Assembly (NCBI RefSeq): GCF_001677885.1
Contig: NZ_LOCQ01000057.1
Span: 62,001 to 126,000, forward strand
Origin: Janthinobacterium psychrotolerans
GTDB taxonomy: Bacteria; Pseudomonadota; Gammaproteobacteria; Burkholderiales; Burkholderiaceae_D
Reading direction: 5' to 3'
Length of the DNA: 64,000 nt
Positions 28,024-54,055 of the stretch are shown piece after piece. The first letter of the stretch is position 1. Every line of letters begins with the position of its first letter. The position numbers were made by a program, and so were the translations under genes. A model generated the notes under the pieces. The model had not been told where the DNA came from, did not search any database, and saw nothing but the letters and a program-made list of their open reading frames with translations.

Positions 28024-29018
28024 TTCATTGGCGCACCTTGCTGGCGGAACTGCTTGCGGTAGGCCGACGGCGAGGTCTGCAGGCTGGCGCGAAAATGCTG
28101 GCGCAGCGACAACGCCGTGCCAAAGCCGGCCTCTTGCGCCACCACATCGATGGCGGCATCGCTTTTTTCCAGCAGGCCCTGCGCATGCGCCAGGCGCTGG
28201 CCCAGCAGCCACTGCTTGAACGAGGTGCCCGTCGCCTGGCGGAAATGGCGGGTAAAGTTGCGCCGGCTCATGGCGGCCCGTTCGGCCAGCGCGTCGATGC
28301 CGTGCGCCTGGCCCAGGTGCGCGCCCACATAAGCGAGCACGTCGGCAAAGCGCCCTTCGCTGTGCGACACCGGCAGCGGCCGCTCGATGAATTGCGCCTG
28401 GCCACCTTGCCGGTGCGGCGCCACCAGCAGGCGGCGCGCCACGCGGTTGGCCAGCCCGGCGCCGGCCAGCTGGCGCAGCAGGTACAGGCAGCAATCGAGC
28501 CCGGCCGCCACGCCAGCCGAGGTCAGCAGGGCCCCATCGTCGACATACAGCATGTCCTGTTCGACCAGCACCTGCGGATGGCGCGCCGCCAGGATGGCCG
28601 CCATGCCCCAGTGGGTGGCGGCGCGCCTGCCGTCGAGCAGCCCCGCCTGCGCCAGCGGAAACGCACCGAGGCACAGCCCCACCATGCGCGCGCCGCGCCG
28701 GTGGGCGCCCTGCAGCGCGGTGACCAGCGCCTCCGGCGCCGGCCGGCAATCGTCGTGCCAGGACGGCATGATGACGATATCGGCCGTCTCCAGCAGCGAC
28801 AAATCATGCGCGGGCACGATGGCAAAGCCGGCCGCAGTGGGCAGCGGCGCGGCAACGGCGGCGCAAACCCTGACCACGAACCGGGGCGCACCGGGCGCCT
28901 CGGCCTCGTCCAGGGGCGTACCGAACACCAGGCAGGGCACGGACAGATGGAAAGGCGTGATGCCGTCATAGGCGATCACGGCAACTTCAAGGGGACGGGT
29001 GGCGGAAAGTGTCAACAT
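28011..29018 (-). CDS. GlxA-type AraC family transcriptional regulator
   Basis: The 335-residue protein couples an N-terminal DJ-1/PfpI-like domain (VAVIAYDGITPFHLSVP, a central GLCLGAFPLAQAGLLDGR with the nucleophile-elbow Cys) to two C-terminal AraC helix-turn-helix motifs (IDALAERAAMSRRNFTRHFR in part; IDVVAQEAGFG). GlxA-type regulators sense amines or other small nitrogen compounds. It is divergent from the isochorismatase-family hydrolase gene, which may be its target. Confidence 0.88.
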   Translation of the reverse strand: MLTLSATRPLEVAVIAYDGITPFHLSVPCLVFGTPLDEAEAPGAPRFVVRVCAAVAAPLPTAAGFAIVPAHDLSLLETADIVIMPSWHDDCRPAPEALVTALQGAHRRGARMVGLCLGAFPLAQAGLLDGRRAATHWGMAAILAARHPQVLVEQDMLYVDDGALLTSAGVAAGLDCCLYLLRQLAGAGLANRVARRLLVAPHRQGGQAQFIERPLPVSHSEGRFADVLAYVGAHLGQAHGIDALAERAAMSRRNFTRHFRQATGTSFKQWLLGQRLAHAQGLLEKSDAAIDVVAQEAGFGTALSLRQHFRASLQTSPSAYRKQFRQQGAPMNQAD

Positions 29019-43357: not shown

Positions 43358-43903
43358 TTACAACAGGGTGGCATGCACCAGCAGGCGGCGGTACAACTGT
43401 CCGGCCGAGTCCTCCAGCGCCTGGTGCTGGGTATCGAGCGTCATGGCCGGCGCCAGCGGCGCTTCGTAGGGGGCGCAGACGCCCGTGAATTGCGCAATCT
43501 GCCCGGCGCGGGCGCGCGCATACAGGCCCTTGGGGTCGCGTGCCTCGCACACCGCCAGCTGCGTGCTGACATGGACCTCAATAAAGTGCGTGTCGCCGAT
43601 AATCGTGGCGGCCATGGCGCGGTCGGCGCGGTGCGGTGAAATCAGGGCGGCGATCACGCTCAATCCCGCCGCGTTCATCAGCCGCGCCACTTCGGCCGTG
43701 CGGCGGATGTTTTCACGCCGGTCTTCGGGCGTAAAACCGAGATCGCGGTTCAGGCCATGGCGCAGCAGGTCGCCATCGAGCACCGCGACCGGGCGGCCGT
43801 CTGCCTGCAGGCGCCGCGCCAGCGCCTCGGCAATGCTGCTCTTGCCGGCGCCGCTCAATCCCGTCAGCCAGACCGTGGCCGCCCTGCTTTGTGCTTGCTT
43901 CAT
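43358..43903 (-). CDS. cysC: Adenylyl-sulfate kinase (stand-alone APS kinase)
   Basis: This 181-residue kinase has the P-loop GLSGAGKSS (15-23), the DGDLLRHGLNRDLGF block and ENIRR, then DPKGLYARARAGQIAQFTGV with the substrate-site FTG..PYE. It phosphorylates adenylyl sulfate to PAPS. The ATG follows AGGAGAGCAG, 53 bp after nasA, so it is most likely the last gene of the nitrate assimilation operon. No cysN or cysD is adjacent. An in-frame extension through nasA is rejected. Confidence 0.92.
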   Translation of the reverse strand: MKQAQSRAATVWLTGLSGAGKSSIAEALARRLQADGRPVAVLDGDLLRHGLNRDLGFTPEDRRENIRRTAEVARLMNAAGLSVIAALISPHRADRAMAATIIGDTHFIEVHVSTQLAVCEARDPKGLYARARAGQIAQFTGVCAPYEAPLAPAMTLDTQHQALEDSAGQLYRRLLVHATLL

Positions 43904-43956
43904 CTGCTCTCCTGTGGTGACAGGAAATATAACAAAGCGGCGGCAAAAAAGACAGC

Positions 43957-46644
43957 CTATGCCGCGCGCTCGGCCAGCGCTTCGGCCGCCACCACCGCAA
44001 TCAGCTGGCGTATCTCCGGCACGCAGGAGCCGCAATTGCCACCCGCCTTGACGCAAGCGGTCACCTGCGCGGTGGTGGTCAAATTGTCCTTGCGGATGGC
44101 GTCGCAGATCGTGTTGCGGCCGACGCCAAAGCACGAGCACACGGTGGGACCGGCGTCCATGCCTTTGGTAATCGGCTGACCCAGCAGCACGCCGGCACGG
44201 TCCGCGGCGTCGAGCTGTTCGTGCGCGAACAGGCCAGCCAGCCAGGCGCGCGACGGCAGGTCCGGCCGTGGCGACACATACACGCATTGCGCGATGCGCC
44301 CATCGGTCAGGTGCACCGCGCGATACACGCCAGCGCTGGCGTCGGCATAATCGAGCCAGTCGGCGTCGACGTCGGTCACTCCCAACTGACCACGCGCCCA
44401 GCCGGCCAGGTCGTCGATGCGGTTGCGCCCGGCCAGCTCGTAGCGCAGGAACTGCTCGCCCTGCACCCGCGTCCAGTGCGCCACGCCGTCGAGTGGCAAC
44501 GGCGTGCGGCTCAGGACGAACGCATGCCAGTGCACGCGGAACTGTTCGATGCGGATCGGCGTATGCTTGAATTCCGGTTCGCCCGAGACCGGGTCGACCA
44601 CCGGGTTGACCACGGCGCCCACCCGCGCGTCGGACGCATTGGCGTCGCTCCAGTGGATCGGCACGAACACCTGGCCGCGCGCGATGCCGCCGCCATGCAC
44701 CACGCGCGCCACCATCGCGCCCCAGCGGCTGGAAATGCGCGCCAGCTCGCCTTCGCGCACGCTGTACAGCAGCGCGTCCTGCGGGTGGATGTCGATGAAC
44801 GATTCGGCGATATGGCCCGACAGTTTCGCCGCCTTGCCGGTGCGCGTCATGGTGTGCCACTGGTCGCGCACCCTGCCAGTATTGAGCACCAGCGGAAAAT
44901 CCTCGTCCGGCAAGTTGTGCGGCGTGCGCGGCGCGGTGGCAATGAAGCGCGCGCGCCCGTCGGCATGGGCAAAGCGGCCGTCGCCGAACAGGCGCGGCTG
45001 GTCTTGCGGCCATTGCTGCGGCGCCAGCGCCTCGTACTGCACCGCATCCAGCGCCACCAGGTGCGACAGGTTGAACAGCCGCGCCGTCTCGCCCGCGTTG
45101 CGAAAGGCGGACAAGCGCGCATGTTCGTCGAAAATCGCCTGCGGCGTGGTGAAATCAAAACCGTCATAACCCATGCGCTTGGCCACCTCGCACAGCACGC
45201 GCCAGTCGGCGCGCGCCTCGCCGGGGGCCGGCAGAAAGGCGCGCTGGCGCGAGATGCGGCGCTCGGAATTGGTCACCGTGCCGTCCTTTTCGCCCCAGCC
45301 CAGCGCCGGCAGCAGCACGTCGGCATACGCATTGGTATCGGCCTGCGCGCTGATGTCCGACACCACCACCAGTTCGCATTTGTCCAGCGCACGGCGTACC
45401 TGGTCGGCGTCGGGCATGCTGACCAGCGGATTGGTGGCGATGATCCACACGGCTTTGACCGTGCCCGCCTCGATGGCGCTGAACAGGTCGACCGCTTTCA
45501 GGCCCGGTTTGCTGGCGATGCGTGGCGCATCCCAGAACGTCTGCACCGCTTCGCGATGCGCCGGTTTGTCGAGGTCCAGGTGGGCCGCCAGCATGTTGGC
45601 CAGTCCGCCCACTTCGCGCCCGCCCATGGCGTTGGGCTGGCCCGTCAGCGAGAAAGGCCCCATGCCGGGCTGGCCGATGCGCCCCGTCGCCAGGTGGCAG
45701 TTGATGATGCTGTTGACCTTGTCGGTGCCGCTCGACGACTGGTTCACACCCTGCGAAAAGGCCGTGACGACCTTGCGCGTGGCGGCGAAATCGCGGTAAA
45801 AGCCAAGCAGCGCCTGCGGGTCGACCTTGCAGATTCTGGCCACCTGCAGCGGGTCGGCGCAGTCGACATGGGCGGCGGCCAGCGCTTCGTCGAGACCTGC
45901 GCTGTGCCGCGTGACGAAATCATCGGCGATCAGGCCCTCGCTGGCGAGATGGCACAGCAGGCCGTTGAACAGCCACACGTCGGTGCCCGGTTTGACGGGA
46001 AGGTGCAGGTCGGCCAGCTCGCAGGTGGCGGTGCGGCGCGGGTCGATCACCACCAGTTTCATATCCGGCCGGCTTTCCTTGAGGCGCGCGATGCGCTGGA
46101 ACAGGATAGGGTGGCACCAGGCCGTGTTCGAGCCGACCAGCACCACCATGTCGGCCAGTTCCAGGTCCTCGTAGCAGCCCGGCACGATGTCTTCGCCGAA
46201 GGCGCGCTTGTGGCCGGCCACCGCCGACGACATGCACAGGCGCGAATTGGTGTCGATATTGGCGCTGCCGACATAGCCTTTCATCAGCTTGTTGGCGATG
46301 TAATAGTCTTCCGTCAGCAGCTGGCCCGAGACATACAGCGCCACCGCATCAGGACCATGTTCGTCGACGATGGCGCGCAGGCCGCCGGCGACCTTGTCGA
46401 GCGCGGCATCCCAGGACACGCGGGCCAGCGCGCCGTCCTGGCGCACCTGCGGGGTCAGCAGGCGCTGGTCGAGACCGACCGTGTCGCCCAGGGCCGAGCC
46501 TTTCACGCACAGGCGGCCCAGGTTGGCCGGATGCTTGGCATCGCCGGCGATGCGGATGGCGCCGTCGGGCAGGCGCGTCGCTTCGACACCGCAGCCGACG
46601 CCGCAATAAGGGCAGGTGGTTTTCACGGGCGTGCAGGTCGTCAT
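43957..46644 (-). CDS. nasA: Assimilatory nitrate reductase, molybdopterin catalytic subunit
   Basis: The 895-residue enzyme begins with a [4Fe-4S] cysteine motif (CPYCGVGCG then LCVKGS), followed by the Mo-bis-PGD domains of the NasA/NapA group (SRLCMSSAVAGHKRAFG, GMGPFSLTGQPNAMGGREVG) and the C-terminal molydopterin dinucleotide-binding region. A fused BFD-like [2Fe-2S] domain ends the protein (CSCFGVGRNTICDAI, GGNCGSCVPEI). The soluble cytoplasmic enzyme reduces nitrate to nitrite. The ATG follows GGAAAGCTCCC. Confidence 0.95.
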   Translation of the reverse strand: MTTCTPVKTTCPYCGVGCGVEATRLPDGAIRIAGDAKHPANLGRLCVKGSALGDTVGLDQRLLTPQVRQDGALARVSWDAALDKVAGGLRAIVDEHGPDAVALYVSGQLLTEDYYIANKLMKGYVGSANIDTNSRLCMSSAVAGHKRAFGEDIVPGCYEDLELADMVVLVGSNTAWCHPILFQRIARLKESRPDMKLVVIDPRRTATCELADLHLPVKPGTDVWLFNGLLCHLASEGLIADDFVTRHSAGLDEALAAAHVDCADPLQVARICKVDPQALLGFYRDFAATRKVVTAFSQGVNQSSSGTDKVNSIINCHLATGRIGQPGMGPFSLTGQPNAMGGREVGGLANMLAAHLDLDKPAHREAVQTFWDAPRIASKPGLKAVDLFSAIEAGTVKAVWIIATNPLVSMPDADQVRRALDKCELVVVSDISAQADTNAYADVLLPALGWGEKDGTVTNSERRISRQRAFLPAPGEARADWRVLCEVAKRMGYDGFDFTTPQAIFDEHARLSAFRNAGETARLFNLSHLVALDAVQYEALAPQQWPQDQPRLFGDGRFAHADGRARFIATAPRTPHNLPDEDFPLVLNTGRVRDQWHTMTRTGKAAKLSGHIAESFIDIHPQDALLYSVREGELARISSRWGAMVARVVHGGGIARGQVFVPIHWSDANASDARVGAVVNPVVDPVSGEPEFKHTPIRIEQFRVHWHAFVLSRTPLPLDGVAHWTRVQGEQFLRYELAGRNRIDDLAGWARGQLGVTDVDADWLDYADASAGVYRAVHLTDGRIAQCVYVSPRPDLPSRAWLAGLFAHEQLDAADRAGVLLGQPITKGMDAGPTVCSCFGVGRNTICDAIRKDNLTTTAQVTACVKAGGNCGSCVPEIRQLIAVVAAEALAERAA

Positions 46645-46657
46645 GGGAGCTTTCCGG

Positions 46658-47896
46658 TCAGGCGGCCAGGTCGCACAAGGCCTGGCCAAACAAAAGGTGC
46701 GAACGCAGGCGGCTGATGTCGCTGCGCTTCTGTATCAGGTCGAAATACCACGGGCCGTCCTGCACCTCGCCATACAGCACGGCGCCGGCCAGGCGATTGC
46801 CCTGCACCACCAGGCGCTTGTAGACGCCGCGGCGCGGGTCGCGCAGCACCAGGTCCTCGCTGCCCTCGCCGCCGATGATATCGCCGGCCGAATACAGGTC
46901 GATGCCCGTCACTTTCAGTTTCGTCGCGCTGGCCTGCTGCACATAGCGCCGGTGGCCGGCGCCGGCCAGGTGGGCGCCGCACACGCGCGCCTGTTCCCAG
47001 ATCGGCGCCACCAGGCCGAAGGTGGCGCGGCGGTGCTGCACGCATTCACCGACGGCATACACGCGCGGATCATAGCTTTGCAGGCAGTCGTCGACGACAA
47101 TGGCGCGCTCGCAGTGCAGGCCGGCCTCTTTCGCCAGCGCGATATTGGGCCGCACACCGGCCGTCATCACCACCAGGTCGGCCGGAATCGACGTTCCATC
47201 GGCAAAGCGCACGCCCTGCACGCGGTCAGTACCAAGGATTTCGGCCGTCTGCGCCTGCATCAGGAACCGCAGGCCGCGCGCTTCGAGCGCCGTTTTCAGC
47301 AGCATCGAGGCGGGTGCGTCGAGCTGCTGGTTCATCAGGCTGCCACTCATGTGCACCACGGTTACGTCCATGCCCTGGCGCTGCAGGCCATTGGCCGCTT
47401 CCAGCCCCAGCAGGCCGCCGCCGATCACCACCGCGTGGCGGTGCTCGCGCGCCGCGCGCAGCATGGTGTCGACGTCGTCGATATCGCGAAAGCCGATCAC
47501 ACCGGGCAGTTCGTGGCCCGGCACCGGCACGATAAAGGGCGTCGAGCCGGTCGCCAGCAGCAGGCGGTCGTAGCTTGCCTTGAGGCCGGACAATGATTCC
47601 ACCCTGCGCGCCTTGCGGTCGATGCGCACCACCGGGTCGCCGGCGTGCAGGGTGATGCCGTGCTGCGCGTACCACTCGCGCGTGTGCAGCATGATGTCGT
47701 CAACCGTCTTTTCGCCGGCCAGCACCGGGGACAGCAGAATGCGGTTGTAATTGCCATGCGGCTCGGCGCCGAAGACGGTGATGTCGTACAGGTCCGGGGC
47801 GAGTTTCAGCAATTCCTCCACCGTGCGCATGCCGGCCATGCCGTTGCCAACCACCACCAGCGATGGCCGCGCTGCGGGGGCCACGGCGGCATTCAC
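46658..47896 (-). CDS. FAD-dependent NAD(P)H oxidoreductase, nitrate reductase electron-transfer partner
   Basis: The 412-residue protein matches the N-terminal half of NirB-type enzymes: FAD motif VVVGNGMAGMRTVEELL, HGNYNRILLSPVLAG, a second Rossmann motif VVIGGGLLGLEAANGLQ and a C-terminal NirB-like domain. It lacks siroheme and Fe-S domains and probably passes electrons from NAD(P)H to NasA via the BFD cluster. The start is a GTG overlapping the nirD stop as GTGA; an upstream ATG lies well inside nirD in another frame. Confidence 0.85.
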   Translation of the reverse strand: MNAAVAPAARPSLVVVGNGMAGMRTVEELLKLAPDLYDITVFGAEPHGNYNRILLSPVLAGEKTVDDIMLHTREWYAQHGITLHAGDPVVRIDRKARRVESLSGLKASYDRLLLATGSTPFIVPVPGHELPGVIGFRDIDDVDTMLRAAREHRHAVVIGGGLLGLEAANGLQRQGMDVTVVHMSGSLMNQQLDAPASMLLKTALEARGLRFLMQAQTAEILGTDRVQGVRFADGTSIPADLVVMTAGVRPNIALAKEAGLHCERAIVVDDCLQSYDPRVYAVGECVQHRRATFGLVAPIWEQARVCGAHLAGAGHRRYVQQASATKLKVTGIDLYSAGDIIGGEGSEDLVLRDPRRGVYKRLVVQGNRLAGAVLYGEVQDGPWYFDLIQKRSDISRLRSHLLFGQALCDLAA

Positions 47897-48255
47897 AGCG
47901 CCACCCACACCATGCCGCCGAAGACGCGCGTCGGCCAGGCGGCCACCGAATGCTCGGGCGCTTCGATGCACTCGCCCGAGCGCAGGTCGAAATGCTGCTT
48001 GTAGATCGGCGAGGCGACCACGATGCGCTCCCCCAGGCTGCCGACCAGGCCGCGCGACAGCACCGAAGCGCCCGCGTTCGGATCGACATTGTCGATGGCG
48101 AAGATCTGCGGGCTGGTGTCGCCGACGCGGAACACGGCCACATGCCGGCCGTTCAACAGCGCGCAGACGCCGGTATCGGGCACGATATCGTCGAGCTGGC
48201 AGATGGCCATCCAGTTGTCGGCGGTAACGCCGGAAAGTTCGTTAATCGCGTTCAT
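47893..48255 (-). CDS. nirD: Nitrite reductase small subunit
   Basis: This 120-residue Rieske-fold protein has the NirD sequence pattern (AICQLDDIVPDTGVCALL, VFRVGDTSPQIFAIDNVDPN in part, SPIYKQHFDLRSG) and lacks the Cys/His ligands of true Rieske proteins, as expected for NirD. It complexes with NirB to reduce nitrite to ammonium. Its ATG is four bases downstream of the nirB stop, and its own stop overlaps the GTG of the next gene. Confidence 0.93.
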   Translation of the reverse strand: MNAINELSGVTADNWMAICQLDDIVPDTGVCALLNGRHVAVFRVGDTSPQIFAIDNVDPNAGASVLSRGLVGSLGERIVVASPIYKQHFDLRSGECIEAPEHSVAAWPTRVFGGMVWVAL

Positions 48256-48258
48256 GGC

Positions 48259-50811
48259 TCAAGCCTCCACGGCAAGGATGGGGATCACGGTACTGCGGCG
48301 TTCGAGTTCGGTGGCGGGACGGATCTGGCCGCGCTCTTCGACAAACACCACGTTTTCATCGTGCTTGTCACTGTTGACGAAATGGCGGAAACGCTGGCGC
48401 ACGGCCGGGTCGTTGACGGCCATCTTCCACTCGCACGCATAGGTGTCGACCACGTGCTGCATGTCCGCTTCCAGCTCAAGCGCCAGGCCCAGGCTGTCGT
48501 CGATGATCACGCGTTTCAGGTAATCGAGGCCGCCTTCGAGGTTGTCGCGCCACACGCTGGTGCGCTGCAGGCGGTCGGCCGTGCGTACATAGAACATCAG
48601 GAAGCGGTCGACATAGCGCACCAGCGTGGCTTCGTCGAGATCGGAGGCGATCAGTTCGGCGTGGCGCGGCTTCATGCCGCCATTGCCGCACACGTACAGA
48701 TTCCAGCCTTTTTCGGTGGCGATCAGGCCGATGTCCTTGCCTTGCGCCTCGGCGCATTCGCGGGTGCAGCCGGACACGCCAAACTTGATCTTGTGCGGCG
48801 TGCGCAAGCCCTTGTAGCGGTTTTCCAGTGCAATCGCAAAGCCCACGCTGTCGGCCACGCCGTAGCGGCACCAGGTCGAACCGACGCACGATTTGACGGT
48901 GCGCAGCGACTTGCCGTAGGCGTGGCCCGATTCGAACCCGGCCGCGATCAGCTCTTCCCAGATCGCCGGCAGCTGATCGACGCGCGCGCCGAACAGGTCG
49001 ACCCGCTGGCCGCCCGTGATCTTGGTGTACAGGCCGTATTTTTTCGCCACCGTGCCGACCGCGATCAGGCCGTCGGCCGTCACTTCGCCGCCGGCCATGC
49101 GCGGCACCACCGAGTAGGTGCCGTCCTTCTGGATATTGCCGAGAAAATAATCGTTGCTGTCCTGCAGGCTGGCATGCACGGGCGTCAATACGAAATCGTT
49201 CCAGCAGGAGGCCAGGATATTGGCCGCCAGCGGCTTGCACACGTCGCAACCGAGGCCATGGCCGTGCGCCGCCAGCAGCTCGCCGAAGCTGCGGATCTTG
49301 CCGACCCGCACCAGGTGGTGCAGCTCCTGGCGCGTATAGGCAAAGTGTTCGCAGACATGGTTGTTGACCGCCATGCCCTGCTTCTTCATTTCGGCCTTCA
49401 TGATTTGCGTCACCAGCGGCACGCAGCCGCCGCACGCCGTGCCCGCTTTCGTGCAGCTTTTCAATGCGGCTATGGTGGTGGCGCCGTCGGCCACCGCCGC
49501 GCACAGCGCGCCTTTCGACACATCGTTGCACGAGCAGATCTGCGCGCCATCGGGCAAGGCGTCCACCCCCAGGCCGGCCTTTTGCTGGCCGTCGGCCTGC
49601 GGCAGGATCAAAAATTCCGGTGACTCAGGCAGCTCGATCTTGTTGAGCATCATCTGCAGCAAGGTGCCGTATTCGCTGGCGTCGCCCACCATCACGCCGC
49701 CGAGCAGGTATTTGCCGCAGTCCGAGACGACGATCTTCTTGTAGATCTGCTTGCGCTCGTCCATGAACTGGTAGGAGCGGCTGCCCGGCGCATTGCCGTG
49801 CGGGTCGCCCAGGCTGGCCACGTCCACGCCCATCAGCTTCAATTTGGTGCTCATGTCGGCGCCCTTGAACGACGCCTCGCCCTCTTCCTGCAGCAGATGG
49901 CGCGCCGCGATGCGGGCCATTTCGTAGCCGGGCGCCACCAGGCCGAAGATCAGCCCGCCCCACAGCGCGCACTCGCCGATGGCGTAGATGTCGGGGTCGG
50001 AAGTAACGCAGCTGTCGTCGATGGCGATGCCGCCGCGCGGCCCCACTTCCAGGCCGCAGGCGCGCGCCAGTTCGTCGCGCGGACGGATGCCGGCCGAGAA
50101 CACGATCATGTCCGCTTCCAGGTGGCTGCCGTCGGCAAACTGCATGCGGTGCGTGGCGTGTTCGCCGTCGACGATGGCCAGGGTGTTCTTTTGCGTGTGG
50201 ACGGTGACGCCCAGCTCTTCGATCTTGCGGCGCAACACGCGCGCGCCGCCTTCGTCGACCTGCACCGCCATCAGGCGCGGCGCGAACTCCACCACGTGGG
50301 TGTCGAGTTTCAGGTCGCGCAGCGCTTTAGCGCATTCCAGGCCCAGCAGCCCGCCGCCGATCACCACGCCGGTTTTCGATTTGTCGCCCCAGGCCAGCAT
50401 GGCTTCCAGGTCTTCGATGGTGCGGTAGACGAAGCAGCCATCGCGCTCCTTGCCCGGCAGCGGCGGCACGAACGGCGTCGAGCCGGTGGCGAACACCAGC
50501 TTGTCGTAGGCCAGGATCTCGCCGCTGCTGACGGTGACGGTTTTTGCCGCACGGTCGACCGCGATGGCGCGGGCATTGAGTTTCAGCACCACATTGCCCT
50601 GGTCGAAAAAGCCGGGCGCCACCAGCGACAGCTCTTCCGCCGATTTGCCACTGAAAAACTCGGACAGGTGCACGCGATCGTACGCAGGGCGCGGCTCTTC
50701 GCATAGCACGGTGACCGACAGGCGCGTGTTGTTTTCCAGCGCCAGCCGTTCGAGGAATTTATGCCCGACCATGCCATGGCCCAGGACGACGATTTTCAGG
50801 GGATTGCTCAT
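48259..50811 (-). CDS. nirB: Assimilatory nitrite reductase [NAD(P)H], large subunit
   Basis: The 850-residue enzyme has two N-terminal Rossmann motifs (IVVLGHGMVGHKFLERL; VVIGGGLLGLECAKAL), a BFD-like [2Fe-2S] region (CSCNDVSKGALCAAV, GTACGGCVPLV) and the siroheme/[4Fe-4S] site with Cys in SCVGSTWC and FGVSGCTRECAEAQ. It carries six-electron reduction of nitrite to ammonium with NirD. The ATG follows GAGGAGAATAGC, just after the transporter gene. Confidence 0.96.
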   Translation of the reverse strand: MSNPLKIVVLGHGMVGHKFLERLALENNTRLSVTVLCEEPRPAYDRVHLSEFFSGKSAEELSLVAPGFFDQGNVVLKLNARAIAVDRAAKTVTVSSGEILAYDKLVFATGSTPFVPPLPGKERDGCFVYRTIEDLEAMLAWGDKSKTGVVIGGGLLGLECAKALRDLKLDTHVVEFAPRLMAVQVDEGGARVLRRKIEELGVTVHTQKNTLAIVDGEHATHRMQFADGSHLEADMIVFSAGIRPRDELARACGLEVGPRGGIAIDDSCVTSDPDIYAIGECALWGGLIFGLVAPGYEMARIAARHLLQEEGEASFKGADMSTKLKLMGVDVASLGDPHGNAPGSRSYQFMDERKQIYKKIVVSDCGKYLLGGVMVGDASEYGTLLQMMLNKIELPESPEFLILPQADGQQKAGLGVDALPDGAQICSCNDVSKGALCAAVADGATTIAALKSCTKAGTACGGCVPLVTQIMKAEMKKQGMAVNNHVCEHFAYTRQELHHLVRVGKIRSFGELLAAHGHGLGCDVCKPLAANILASCWNDFVLTPVHASLQDSNDYFLGNIQKDGTYSVVPRMAGGEVTADGLIAVGTVAKKYGLYTKITGGQRVDLFGARVDQLPAIWEELIAAGFESGHAYGKSLRTVKSCVGSTWCRYGVADSVGFAIALENRYKGLRTPHKIKFGVSGCTRECAEAQGKDIGLIATEKGWNLYVCGNGGMKPRHAELIASDLDEATLVRYVDRFLMFYVRTADRLQRTSVWRDNLEGGLDYLKRVIIDDSLGLALELEADMQHVVDTYACEWKMAVNDPAVRQRFRHFVNSDKHDENVVFVEERGQIRPATELERRSTVIPILAVEA

Positions 50812-50821
50812 GCTATTCTCC

Positions 50822-52114
50822 TCAGGCCGCAGCCATCTTCGATTCGGCCGCGCTACTGGTAAAACGCACGGCGATGGCACACAGCGCCGACACCACCACC
50901 AGCACGCTCAAAATGATCAATGTCTGGCGGATATCGCCGGTGCCCTTCATCAGGAACCCGGCCGCCACCGCACCGACATTGCCGCCGGCGCCGATAATGC
51001 CGGCCACGCCGCCCAGTGCCTTGCTGTCGATAAATGGCACCAATGCATACGTCGCGCCGCAAGCCATATGGGTGAACAGGCCAAACACCAGCATGGCGAT
51101 CACGGCCCAGGTGACGCTGTCGACCTTGGCAAACCACAGCAGGCCCACGCCTTCGCCGATCATCAGCATGAACAGCAGGGTGACGCGGCTATTGAGGTTG
51201 CCGCGCAGCGCCAGCTTGTCGGACATCCAGCCACCGAGGGCGCGGGCAAACAGGGCCAGCAGACCGAAGCTGCCGGCGGCCAGGCCGGCGGATTTCAAAG
51301 ACAGGCCGAAATGGTCGACGTAGTAGACGGCGGCAATATTGTGGATAAAGATCTCGATGCCGAAGCAGGCACCGTAGGTGACGAACAGCAGCCATACACG
51401 GTAGTTGCTGCTCGCCGCCTTGAAGCTGGCCCAGCCACCCTTTTTTCCGCCTTCGATGGCGATGCCGGCCTTGCGCATGTCGGAATAATTGCCTTGCGGG
51501 CAGTCCTGCGTAAAGCGCCAGTACAGGGCCGCCATCACCAGCATCAGCACGCCAGGCACCAGCAGGGCCACGCGCCAGCCCAGCGACTCGGACACGCCCA
51601 GCATCACCAGCGCGCCCAGCAGCAGCGGCATCAGCGCCTGCGCCGCGCCGCCGCCCGCATTGCCCCAGCCGGCGGCGGCCGCATTGGCCGTGCCGACCAC
51701 GCGCGGCGCGAACATCACCGAGGTGTGGTACTGGGTAATCACGAAGCTGGCGCCGACCGCGCCGATACCGAGGCGGAAGAACAGAAAGCTCTCGTAGCTT
51801 TGCGAAGCGGCCACGCCCAGCACGGGAATCGCGCCCAGCAGCAGCAAGCCGGTATAGGTCTTGCGCGGACCGTAGCGGTCGCACATGGGGCCGACGATCA
51901 GGCGCACCAGGATGGTGATGGCGACGGCGGCGATATTGATATTGGCCACTTGCGCCAGCGACAGGCCGAACTCGCCCTTGATGATGGGCATCAGCGGCGC
52001 GCAGGCGAACCAGGCGAAAAAGCAGACGAAGAACGCCATCCACGTCAGGTGGAAGGCGCGCATGGGTGGCGTGGCGAGGGAAAAGAGCGTGATGCTGGTA
52101 GCTTTGCTGGCCAT
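50822..52114 (-). CDS. narK: Nitrate/nitrite MFS transporter (NarK/NasA type)
   Basis: The 430-residue 12-helix protein carries both nitrate-signature motifs: AGWGNAGGGAAQALMPL in helix 5 and GAGGNVGAVAAGFLMKG in helix 11, as well as the conserved Arg-containing RLIVGPMCDRYGPRKTY loop between helices 2 and 3. It imports nitrate for assimilation. It is the first gene of the operon, directly behind the sigma-54 promoter and antitermination leader. The role is assigned from the downstream assimilation genes. Confidence 0.93.
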   Translation of the reverse strand: MASKATSITLFSLATPPMRAFHLTWMAFFVCFFAWFACAPLMPIIKGEFGLSLAQVANINIAAVAITILVRLIVGPMCDRYGPRKTYTGLLLLGAIPVLGVAASQSYESFLFFRLGIGAVGASFVITQYHTSVMFAPRVVGTANAAAAGWGNAGGGAAQALMPLLLGALVMLGVSESLGWRVALLVPGVLMLVMAALYWRFTQDCPQGNYSDMRKAGIAIEGGKKGGWASFKAASSNYRVWLLFVTYGACFGIEIFIHNIAAVYYVDHFGLSLKSAGLAAGSFGLLALFARALGGWMSDKLALRGNLNSRVTLLFMLMIGEGVGLLWFAKVDSVTWAVIAMLVFGLFTHMACGATYALVPFIDSKALGGVAGIIGAGGNVGAVAAGFLMKGTGDIRQTLIILSVLVVVSALCAIAVRFTSSAAESKMAAA

Positions 52115-52139: not shown

Positions 52140-52197
52140 AAAAACAAAAACGGCGCCCGCTCCCACCGATCACAAAATCAGTTGAGCGGACGCCGTT
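52140..52197 (-). terminator. Leader terminator of the nitrate operon (attenuator)
   Basis: On the minus strand a 14-bp stem AACGGCGTCCGCTC/GAGCGGGCGCCGTT (52197-52184 with 52162-52149, one G-U pair) with a 21-base loop runs into TTTTTGTTTTT. It ends about 25 bases before the transporter start. Its 5' arm contains most of the third hexaloop hairpin, so the two structures exclude each other. Confidence 0.9.
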
Positions 52198-52252
52198 GTC
52201 CATGGTGGTCCGTCGTTGGACCGTTGTTTGTTCAGGGGATCGCCGTTGATCC
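52188..52252 (-). ncRNA. ANTAR-target leader RNA, three hexaloop hairpins
   Basis: Three short hairpins on the minus strand carry hexaloops with A at position 1 and G at position 4, the recognition pattern of ANTAR antiterminators. P1 is GGATC-AACGGC-GATCC (52252-52237), P2 GGTCC-AACGAC-GGACC (52222-52207) and P3 GGAC-AACGGC-GTCC (52201-52188). P3 uses ten bases of the terminator 5' arm. P1 begins three bases from the predicted transcript start. The NasT/NasR-like protein itself is not encoded in this window. Confidence 0.85.
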
Positions 52253-52265
52253 GTCCCTATCCTTT

Positions 52266-52281
52266 AGCAAGCGCCGTGCCA
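52266..52281 (-). promoter_or_regulatory. Sigma-54 promoter of the nitrate assimilation operon
   Basis: TGGCACGGCGCTTGCT on the minus strand is a perfect match to TGGCACG-N4-TTGCW. It puts transcription start near 52255, immediately before the first leader hairpin. This indicates RpoN and NtrC control, as in the Klebsiella nas operon. Confidence 0.88.
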
Positions 52282-52435: not shown

Positions 52436-54055
52436 ATGCACGGGCGACGGTGGTATCTGGCGGCAAGCCGGGCTTGTGTGCTGGTGTTGATGTCCTGCCC
52501 GGCGCAGGCTGGCGAACCGAAAGAGCATAGCGAGCTGGCAGCAACGGTCAGCGCGCCGTTCCGGGCCACGCCGGCGCAGCGCCGCACGCAGGCGCGCACC
52601 TTTGTCGTGCAGTTTGATCATTCTGAAGGCGACCACACGGATGCCGTGGACTGGCGCCTGATCCTCTCCGGCCCCGGCCCACAGGGTGTCTTGCAGCGGG
52701 TCTGGTCAGGGCGCAAGCGACTCCACACAGGCAGCGCCACCGTGCGCCTGCACTGGGATGGCCTGGGCAAAAACCGCCGGCCCGCGCCGCAAGGCCTCTA
52801 TGACCTGCGCCTGGTGGCCGGCAGCGGTGACGACCGCGTGGAACAGCAATGGCAGATCGCCGTCGAGCGCAGCACGCCAGAAGCACCGCGCCTGATGGCG
52901 ATGGCGCCGCCGCCGGCGCTCGACAGCAACTCGCCCTACCGCATCGTCTACGCCAACCTGCACAGCCAGACCCGTCACAGCGACGGCGGCGCCGCGCTCG
53001 CCTACTGCAAGGGTGCGCAGGAACCGCAATCGGCGCCTTACGGCCCGCTGGACGCCTACCGCTACGCGCAGGAACACGGGCTGGACGTGCTGCTCGCTTC
53101 CGAGCACAACCATATGTATGACGGTTCCGACGGCACCAATGCGGCGGCCGAACCGTTTGACGCAATCGCGCTGTACCACGACGGCCTGGCCACAGCGGCC
53201 GCCTATAGCGCCGCCCACCCCGGCTTTCTGGCCCTGTACGGCATGGAATGGGGCGTGATCAACAAGGGCGGCCACCTGAATATCCTCAATGGCGAGCACC
53301 TGCTGGGTTGGGAGAAAAATGGCCGCGGCCAGCTGCTGGCGGAGGTCGAGACGCCGAAAGGCGATTACGCAGGCCTGTACACCCTGATGCGCGCGCGCGG
53401 CTGGCTGGGCCAGTTCAACCACCCGGCGCGCTCGGGCCAGTTTCTGGTCGACGGCGCGGCACTGGGCTACACGCCGGACGGCGACGCCGCCATGGTGCTG
53501 TGCGAAGTGATGAACACCTCGGCCTTTTCCACCAACGAGCATGAAACGGAAACGCGGCGCAGCAATTTCGAGGCGGCCTGCAACCAGGTGCTGGCCGCCG
53601 GCTACCATGTCGCCTTCAGCAGCAACCAGGACAACCACTGCGCCAACTGGGGCGCCGCCTACGGCAACCGCACCGCCATCCTGGTCAGGCGCGACGCCGC
53701 CCTGTCGCGCGACAGCCTGTTCGAGGCGCTGCGCGCGCGGCGCGTGTTCGCCACCATGGACAAGCATGCGCAACTGGTTTTCACCGCCAACGGCAGGATG
53801 ATGGGCGAACGTTTCGACAACCGCGGTCCCTTGCGGCTGGCGGCCAGTTTCAGCAACGCGCGCGGGCGCCAGATCGCCGCCGTAGCGCTGTTTCAAGGTA
53901 TACCAGGCGCCAATGGCAGCGTCACTGTGCTATCGGACCAGGCCAGCCTGAGTCTGACGCCTTCTACAGGCGCGCATTTTTACTATGCGCGCGTGACCCA
54001 GGACGACGGCAACCTCGTGTGGTCGGCGCCGGTGTGGGTCAATCAGCTGCCTTGA
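52436..54055 (+). CDS. CehA/McbA family metallohydrolase (PHP domain)
   Basis: The 539-residue exported protein starts after GGAGGCAATC with a signal peptide. A beta-rich domain of about 140 residues precedes a PHP domain whose metal ligands are visible in YANLHSQTRHSDGG, LASEHNHMYDG and QFNHPARSGQF. CehA/McbA relatives include carbaryl hydrolases, but most have no known substrate. It is divergent from the nitrate operon without obvious functional link. A 39-codon upstream extension would overlap the nitrate promoter region and lacks a ribosome-binding site. Its 3' end overlaps the LysR gene by 17 bp. Confidence 0.82.
   Translation: MHGRRWYLAASRACVLVLMSCPAQAGEPKEHSELAATVSAPFRATPAQRRTQARTFVVQFDHSEGDHTDAVDWRLILSGPGPQGVLQRVWSGRKRLHTGSATVRLHWDGLGKNRRPAPQGLYDLRLVAGSGDDRVEQQWQIAVERSTPEAPRLMAMAPPPALDSNSPYRIVYANLHSQTRHSDGGAALAYCKGAQEPQSAPYGPLDAYRYAQEHGLDVLLASEHNHMYDGSDGTNAAAEPFDAIALYHDGLATAAAYSAAHPGFLALYGMEWGVINKGGHLNILNGEHLLGWEKNGRGQLLAEVETPKGDYAGLYTLMRARGWLGQFNHPARSGQFLVDGAALGYTPDGDAAMVLCEVMNTSAFSTNEHETETRRSNFEAACNQVLAAGYHVAFSSNQDNHCANWGAAYGNRTAILVRRDAALSRDSLFEALRARRVFATMDKHAQLVFTANGRMMGERFDNRGPLRLAASFSNARGRQIAAVALFQGIPGANGSVTVLSDQASLSLTPSTGAHFYYARVTQDDGNLVWSAPVWVNQLP

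Follow-up and report, generated by a model that had tools for sequence, protein, structure and literature searches.

A conserved third hexaloop hairpin in a predicted NasT/NasR-type leader of the nitrate assimilation operon in Janthinobacterium psychrotolerans

The nitrate assimilation operon of Janthinobacterium psychrotolerans is preceded by a leader that, judging from its sequence, is very probably (a probability of roughly 0.9) a transcription antitermination leader of the NasT/NasR type, and the unusual feature of this leader is a third hexaloop hairpin lying upstream of the canonical pair. The parts of the leader are already known; what is new, set against the literature surveyed, is the third hexaloop in an operon leader, its conservation across the family, and its presence in P11-type leaders. 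The window analysed here is a stretch of 64,000 nucleotides, in which the leader is oriented on the minus strand and lies between narK, whose start codon is at 52114, and a divergent plus-strand gene. The features of the leader (hairpins H1, H2, and H3 in the order of transcription) and of the operon are collected in Table 1.

Table 1. Features of the leader and of the nitrate assimilation operon (positions in the window)
Feature	Position	Strand	Basis or remark
Sigma-54-type promoter TGGCAC-N5-TTGC (GG-N10-GC)	52267..52281	-	Exact motif match
Predicted +1	~52255	-	From promoter position; 3 nt 5' of H1
H1 hexaloop hairpin GGATC-AACGGC-GATCC	52237..52252 (loop 52247-52242)	-	Read, fold, centroid
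H2 hexaloop hairpin GGTCC-AACGAC-GGACC	52207..52222 (loop 52217-52212)	-	Read, folds
H3 hexaloop hairpin UGGAC-AACGGC-GUCCG	52187..52202 (loop 52197-52192)	-	Read, folding series
Intrinsic terminator, stem 52197-52184 with 52162-52149 plus apical helix	52141..52197	-	Centroid and minimum-energy fold
Terminator T-run	52150-52141	-	3' of terminator stem
narK/nasA-type nitrate/nitrite MFS transporter, first operon gene	50822..52114	-	PF07690
nirB, nitrite reductase large subunit	48259..50880 (open frame; start probably further in)	-	TIGR02374, 1132 bits, above cut-off; Pfam
nirD, Rieske-type small subunit	47893..48255	-	PF13806
NirB-like FAD/NAD(P)H oxidoreductase	46658..47971	-	PF07992; partial TIGR02374 below cut-off
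Molybdopterin oxidoreductase	43957..46689	-	PF00384, PF01568, PF04879, PF04324

The first-pass annotation of this DNA had described a sigma-54 motif, a transcription start three bases before the first hairpin, three hexaloops (AACGGC, AACGAC, and AACGGC) with A1 and G4 in each, and a strong terminator overlapping the third hairpin by ten bases, and all of these were found again on the minus strand. The overlap of H3 with the terminator amounts to 10 nt when the 4-bp core is counted and to 11 nt when the U-G pair outside it is included. It takes in the loop and the 3' arm of H3, and formation of the terminator excludes H3. A smaller hairpin ahead of the same T-run was also flagged.

The first protein of the operon scored 295.8 bits against the NarK family TIGR00886, just under the cut-off of 311.7, and is 98% identical to a protein of Janthinobacterium sp. 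PC23-8. The molybdopterin oxidoreductase scored below the cut-offs of both NCBIfam models that it resembled, namely formate dehydrogenase alpha (498 bits; cut-off 666) and NasC (452 bits; cut-off 1100), and is probably an assimilatory nitrate reductase (nasC/nasA type), a name taken from the operon context. After its gene, an APS-kinase-like frame was noticed by eye (window ~43358-44000, minus strand), which may mean that a gene for sulfate assimilation adjoins the operon. The divergent neighbour on the other side of the leader (window 52436-54055, plus strand) encodes a CehA/McbA family metallohydrolase (NF038032, 93 bits, above the cut-off).

The promoter motif alone is not rare, as 7 matches with up to one mismatch were counted in the 64-kb window versus 9.9 expected, and the credibility of the promoter hence rests on its conservation: a loose form of the motif is present upstream in 73 of the 74 NarK leaders with a called terminator (among the best 80 of 578 relatives). 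Sigma-54 is the predicted factor at this promoter. Another exact match to TGGCAC-N5-TTGC occurs in the window at 28746-28760 (minus strand). Also, two TGCACC half-sites, which we take to resemble NtrC half-sites, are located 5' of the leader promoter at 52369-52364 and 52348-52343 (minus strand).

When folded in silico, the 157-nt leader was more stable than 200/200 shuffles (z = -4.0), and its centroid is composed of H1, H2, and the terminator. The minimum-energy fold also keeps H2 and the terminator, but the arms of H1 pair there with sequence downstream of the terminator. Predicted energies of the elements alone are -5.3 (H1), -7.3 (H2), -5.5 (H3), and -35.6 kcal/mol (terminator). In a folding series of the growing RNA, H1, H2, and H3 appear in turn, and the terminator later displaces H3 only; at full length, the linker between H1 and H2 pairs with the U-tract, and no pairing between H1 and H2 was seen in the series of RNA up to the T-run. 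Pairing of the three hairpins with one another, an alternative that had been proposed for this leader, was dropped as the main idea: only H3 is replaced, by the terminator, and the one competing partner of H1 is sequence downstream of the terminator. The other proposal, a graded response, is hypothetical.

RNA targets of ANTAR proteins are known to possess two hexaloop hairpins, P1 and P2, with A1 and G4 in the loops, and P2 excludes the terminator (PMC3369931, PMC3369936, PMC7496416). Indeed, the leaders of Enterococcus eut, Klebsiella nasF, and Pseudomonas amiE resemble the window leader in having tandem A1/G4 hexaloops and a P2 overlapping the 5' arm of the terminator, as far as the cited sources describe them. 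It is the terminator-overlapping hairpin that the first-pass annotation had regarded as the extra one; because a P2 that overlaps the terminator is a defining feature of the known two-hairpin motif (PMC3369936, PMC7496416), however, H3 is better placed by analogy at the canonical P2/antiterminator position, and the extra hairpin lies upstream. By spacing, H2 is likely the canonical P1, with linkers in the window of 5 nt between H2 and H3 and of 14 nt between H1 and H2. In the eut leaders, linkers of 5-12 nt work and those of 3 and 14 nt impair induction (PMC3369931), and the loop A's of eutP at 29 and 53 are 24 nt apart (PMC3369931); the H2-H3 spacing fits this known pair, whereas the H1-H2 linker exceeds the eut range. 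A later survey accepts linkers of 2-25 nt (PMC8164766). The assignment is nonetheless in conflict: spacing selects H2-H3 as the canonical pair, while the loop sequence and the Rfam narK alignment select H1 as the counterpart of P1 and make H2 an insert.

Conservation was followed in two samples, one drawn by NarK protein similarity and the other by the H3 sequence alone, so that upstream hairpins did not decide which leaders entered either sample. The NarK sample comprises the best 80 of 578 relatives, of which two were too short, leaving 78 leaders. Three hairpins in the strict sense, i.e., an A1/G4 hairpin at the terminator preceded by two, and no more than two, A1/G4 hexaloop hairpins, were found in 66 of the 78; 62 were scored by script, and four (L264, L273, L281, and L282) were added in which the hairpins are present but the script's terminator test failed. 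By eye, five more (L263, L268, L283, L305, and L307) show a single mismatch in the stem of H2, four from Burkholderia/Paraburkholderia keep H1 with no H2 seen, and two Cupriavidus narK leaders without H2 (L316 and L317) have their distant AACGGC hairpin separated from H3 by a tetraloop hairpin, which may be a structural spacer bringing the two hexaloops together. The leader of Duganella CF458 has no H1 and keeps H2 and H3. In downstream regions of narK in Burkholderia sp. WSM2230 (L295:4000-4200) and Paraburkholderia (L297:4040-4240), we also noticed a second leader with H1-/H3-like hexaloops and a terminator, making two such leaders in tandem at each locus; H2 was seen in neither.

The expectation that relatives keep all three loops is thus borne out in most leaders but not in those without H1 or H2, which make up 7 of 77 distinct NarK leaders and retain the terminator. 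These seven were left out of an alignment of 70 NarK leaders, in which all three loops have A1 and G4 without exception (70/70); a loss of A1/G4 in relatives that keep the terminator, named earlier as evidence against this reading, was found only in this minority of seven, where a whole hairpin is absent. The A1/A2 invariance in H3 is confounded, because these bases can also pair with the U-tract. The loops vary at position 3 in all three hairpins and at positions 5 and 6 in H1 and H2; all four letters are seen at position 3 of H1 and H2 and at position 6 of H2. H1 and H3 are closed by C:G (70/70) and H2 by either C:G (41) or U:G (29). As for the stems, double changes were found at 3/5 pairs of H1 (99.7% of cells paired) and at 5/8 pairs of H2 (90.9% paired), and both stems covary; H3 is nearly invariant (99.6% paired), giving no covariation signal either way. 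The whole structure has 8 double-change pairs versus 4.9 in shuffles, of which 2/500 reach 8, and 3-5 in slid versions. When stable hairpins with loops of 4-8 nt were collected upstream of H3 in the NarK-anchored relatives (73 distinct segments), 108 of 123 were hexaloops and the other 15 had loops of 4, 5, 7, or 8 nt; 106 of the 108 hexaloops have A1 and G4.

The two intervals differ in their spacing. Across the 66 leaders, the loops of H2 and H3 are 19-27 nt apart with a linker of 1-12 nt (median 4), and those of H1 and H2 are 26-52 nt apart (median 33) with a linker of 7-32 nt (median 14), so that the H1-H2 spacing is both longer and more variable. This distant third hexaloop is what distinguishes the window leader from the two-hexaloop leaders of eut, nasF, and amiE as these are described.

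In the sample drawn by H3, 94 sites of the family have a terminator, and both H1 and H2 were found in 74, only H1 in 13, and only H2 in 7; with two sites from genomes outside the sample of 190 included, the figure would be 76 of 96. Among the 38 such sites of the wider class, 11 have both, 10 only H2, 9 only H1, and 8 neither. The 11 include sites whose loops are atypical (ATCGCG, ACGGAT) and which may have arisen by chance. Sites without a terminator mostly have no upstream hexaloop (16/17 in the family and 32/35 in the class). Three hairpins are, therefore, the rule in the family and a minority form in the class. Scored were 111 of 112 listed places in the family, one place (genome G175) being left out here and in the cross-tabulation with NasT below as its leader duplicates another over the compared stretch, and 73 of 76 in the class, where one was not retrieved, one lies near a contig end, and one is a duplicate of the window.

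Could such hairpins arise by chance in a GC-rich leader? A single A1/G4 hexaloop hairpin does so, appearing in 7.5% of dinucleotide shuffles of the sequence upstream of an anchored H3 and terminator, but two further ones appear in 0.1% of the same shuffles, against 74 of the 94 family sites; together with the invariant A1/G4 and the covariation, this makes a chance origin of the three hairpins extremely improbable. The shuffle expectation was derived from a mixed set of 165 anchored sites with a terminator, which includes loci found by blastn and by Rfam models and was used only for this expectation and for the P11 loci below; 10, 50, 104, and 1 of its sites have 0, 1, 2, and 3 further hairpins, respectively.

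A covariance model of the three hairpins, called R1, gave one strong match in the own genome (72.1 bits). The next matches (17.4, 13.7, and 13.6 bits), considered as other NasT targets, have one or two A1/G4 hexaloops each and were dismissed as chance. R1 also matched in 42 of 300 genomes of the order, a figure that is not a rate because the model favours three hairpins; among the loci read, three-hexaloop leaders were found in other families of the order (e.g., L352-L355, L366, and L370).

At gathering thresholds, Rfam gave no match in the window. A permissive search placed two models on the leader, narK (RF03032) at 24.8 bits and the Pseudomonas sRNA P11 (RF00625) at 20.9 bits, below their gathering thresholds of 43.2 and 70, respectively. 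The narK model agrees in strand, position, promoter elements, the AACGGC hairpin, and a downstream A1/G4 hexaloop; its consensus, however, has two hexaloops, only the first of which is drawn as a hairpin, and H2 of the window appears as a 26-nt insert. P11 shares a sigma-54-like promoter, two hexaloop hairpins, and a terminator 5' arm with a third A1/G4 hexaloop, and where a downstream frame is visible by eye it is nirB-like (e.g., L064 and L066). P11 differs in the shorter loop-to-loop distance between H1 and H2 (23-24 nt), and the model draws the two upstream hairpins, the terminator, and some promoter pairs but not the third hexaloop. All of the 11 loci above the P11 gathering score have H3, seven have all three hairpins strictly, and R1 matches all 11 (E 1.3e-5 to 3.2e-3). 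The contrast that had been drawn with two-hairpin leaders of Pseudomonas hence does not extend to leaders matched by P11. These results suggest that ANTAR proteins target the leaders of both Rfam families, narK and P11.

Among the papers listed in our literature searches, three-hexaloop ANTAR operon leaders were not found; the published leaders, those of NasT included, are described there with two hairpins (PMC7496416, PMC5424462, PMC3369936, PMC8164766), and the nearest case is EutX (PMC8934654). This RNA (rli55) of Enterococcus and Listeria binds an ANTAR protein and is said to carry a dual hexaloop motif plus one more, that is, three; EutX is, however, described as a non-coding RNA that sequesters EutV instead of the leader of its own operon, and it is set beside the window leader by its description only (PMC8934654). 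The nasA leader of Paracoccus denitrificans is similar in that NasT acts on and binds the RNA of a nitrate-assimilation leader with nitrate present (PMC3795266), and differs in having two hairpins, of which a mutation of HI mattered and one of HII had little effect with nitrate (PMC5424462).

The reading as an ANTAR target had depended on the presence of an ANTAR protein in the genome. Two such proteins were found. One is a NasT of 217 amino acids (ANTAR, E 3.6e-21; L001, 1006-1659), whose gene is followed by one for a NasS-like protein (NMT1_2, PF13379, E 5.6e-88); the pairing of ANTAR with PF13379 corresponds to the NasT-NasS arrangement, and nitrate binding by the latter is putative. Compared with the structure of EutV (PDB 6wsh), NasT has R, K, R, Y, and M at EutV R142, K143, K147, Y164, and M172, and so keeps the residue types of R142, K143, Y164, and M172 that contact RNA there but has R for K147; the residue numbers are those of PMC8934654, and a chain offset of 2 was deduced from the residue types. 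The other ANTAR protein is a response regulator with a receiver domain (L002; G000:C8:112118-112276), and R1 detected no second strong leader in the own genome that could be its target. The nasT gene is on another contig (C21), away from the leader; in the genus of the window, nasT was within 6 kb of the leader in 0/12 typed genomes, and across the family it was within 2.5 kb in 41 of the 83 typed genomes having both.

Among 190 genomes of the family, 82 have both the leader and NasT (called at E <= 1e-30), 10 only the leader, 40 only NasT, and 58 neither, a co-occurrence that partly reflects shared descent within one family, which its Fisher p of 1e-12 ignores. All 10 leader genomes without a NasT match encode another ANTAR protein above the Pfam cut-off, so that each of the 92 leader-bearing genomes tallied has either NasT (82) or another ANTAR protein (10). 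Four of these 10 were inspected: three were NIT-ANTAR proteins like NasR, and one was an ANTAR response regulator beside a NasS-like protein. Because NIT-ANTAR proteins were found in leader genomes without NasT, a switch of sensor from NasS-NasT to NasR can leave the form of the leader unchanged. NasT is present, on the other hand, in 40 of the 98 leaderless genomes and would thus have other work or other leaders there.

We propose the following mechanism, in which the binding of NasT and the response of the leader to nitrate are predicted. RNA polymerase would start at the sigma-54 promoter, and the RNA would by default fold into the terminator. NasS would hold NasT back until nitrate or nitrite frees it, and the freed NasT would recognise the A1/G4 hexaloops, H2 and H3 being spaced like the canonical two-hairpin target. 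A closed H3 would deny the terminator its 5' arm, allowing polymerase to read into narK-nirB-nirD and the reductase genes. H1 at the extreme 5' end would raise the occupancy of NasT before H3 and the terminator compete; NasT would most likely load on H1 and H2 as they emerge and then be passed to H3, thereby blocking the terminator. Because of the folding order and the fit of the H2-H3 spacing to the known pair, we assign antitermination to the pair H2-H3 and an early loading of NasT to H1, the latter role being slightly favoured over its absence. The SELEX motif of NasR consists of a C:G closing pair, A1, and G4, and NasR binds two hairpins ~12 times better than one (~1 versus 12 uM) (PMC7496416). 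Against the mechanism stand the opening of H1 in the minimum-energy fold, the H1-H2 linker above the eut range, the 12 of 78 NarK leaders that do not score as three, the distance of nasT from the leader in this genome and genus, NasT in 40 of the 98 leaderless genomes, and the narK leader of Bradyrhizobium, which has a predicted NasT hairpin and is up, not down, in a nasT mutant (PMC6759348).

The same leader might instead be read with H1 and H2 as the functional ANTAR pair, in which case H3 would be a piece of the terminator that closes by chance and NasT would act on the terminator in some other way. The loop and the 3' arm of H3 are indeed under the constraint of the terminator, Rfam narK aligns H1 as a hairpin and H2 as an insert, and the four Burkholderia/Paraburkholderia leaders keep H1 with no H2 seen; the 5' arm GGAC of H3 is, however, nearly invariant though outside the terminator, the known motif is matched more closely by the H2-H3 spacing than by the H1-H2 spacing, and Duganella CF458 has H2 and H3 without H1. 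We consider this reading unlikely, and a shade less likely again is that H1 is no protein site but a 5'-terminal hairpin guarding the mRNA from decay or fixing the start site. Such a role would suit a strongly conserved stem that begins ~3 nt from the predicted start, but a protective stem would not need the ANTAR signature, and the H1 loop does show it, with A1 and G4 unchanged in 70/70 against all four letters at position 3 and variation at positions 5 and 6.

Somewhat less remote, while still doubtful, is the idea that the terminated leader with H1 and H2 serves as a sponge or feedback decoy for NasT, which is compatible with antitermination through H2-H3. H1 and H2 stay intact in the folding series once the terminator forms, EutX with its dual hexaloop and extra single one is proposed to sequester EutV (PMC8934654), and the related P11 goes under the name of an sRNA in Rfam, with "gene" as its type. 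Compared with the eut leaders as described, however, H1 and H2 stand farther apart, and with one strong leader match in the genome there is no known object for feedback onto other targets. It is a comparably tentative extension of the preferred reading, that of H2-H3 as antiterminator and H1 as loading site, that two devices coexist in one RNA, namely an H1-H2-H3 relay handing NasT to the antiterminator and, if termination wins, a released RNA of ~115 nt whose intact H1 and H2 sequester NasT. A two-hairpin leader could not act as a NasT sponge after termination, because termination destroys its P2. If the two devices were real, sequestration would sharpen or damp the nitrate response, and the P11 sRNA would be a by-product at work.

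The three-hexaloop leaders suggest, furthermore, that two-hairpin search models would under-describe this class of RNA. How the ANTAR dimer uses its hairpins is unsettled: in one view the dimer holds both loops together (PMC3369936), while the structure of EutV with RNA argues against this and has led to a proposal of capture and transfer, where the dimer grips one loop at a time and is recruited by P1 before passing to the P2 antitermination hairpin (PMC8934654). A leader with a third hexaloop that can be removed separately, together with relatives in which H1 (Duganella CF458) or H2 (Burkholderia/Paraburkholderia) is absent, provides a natural test set for this question.
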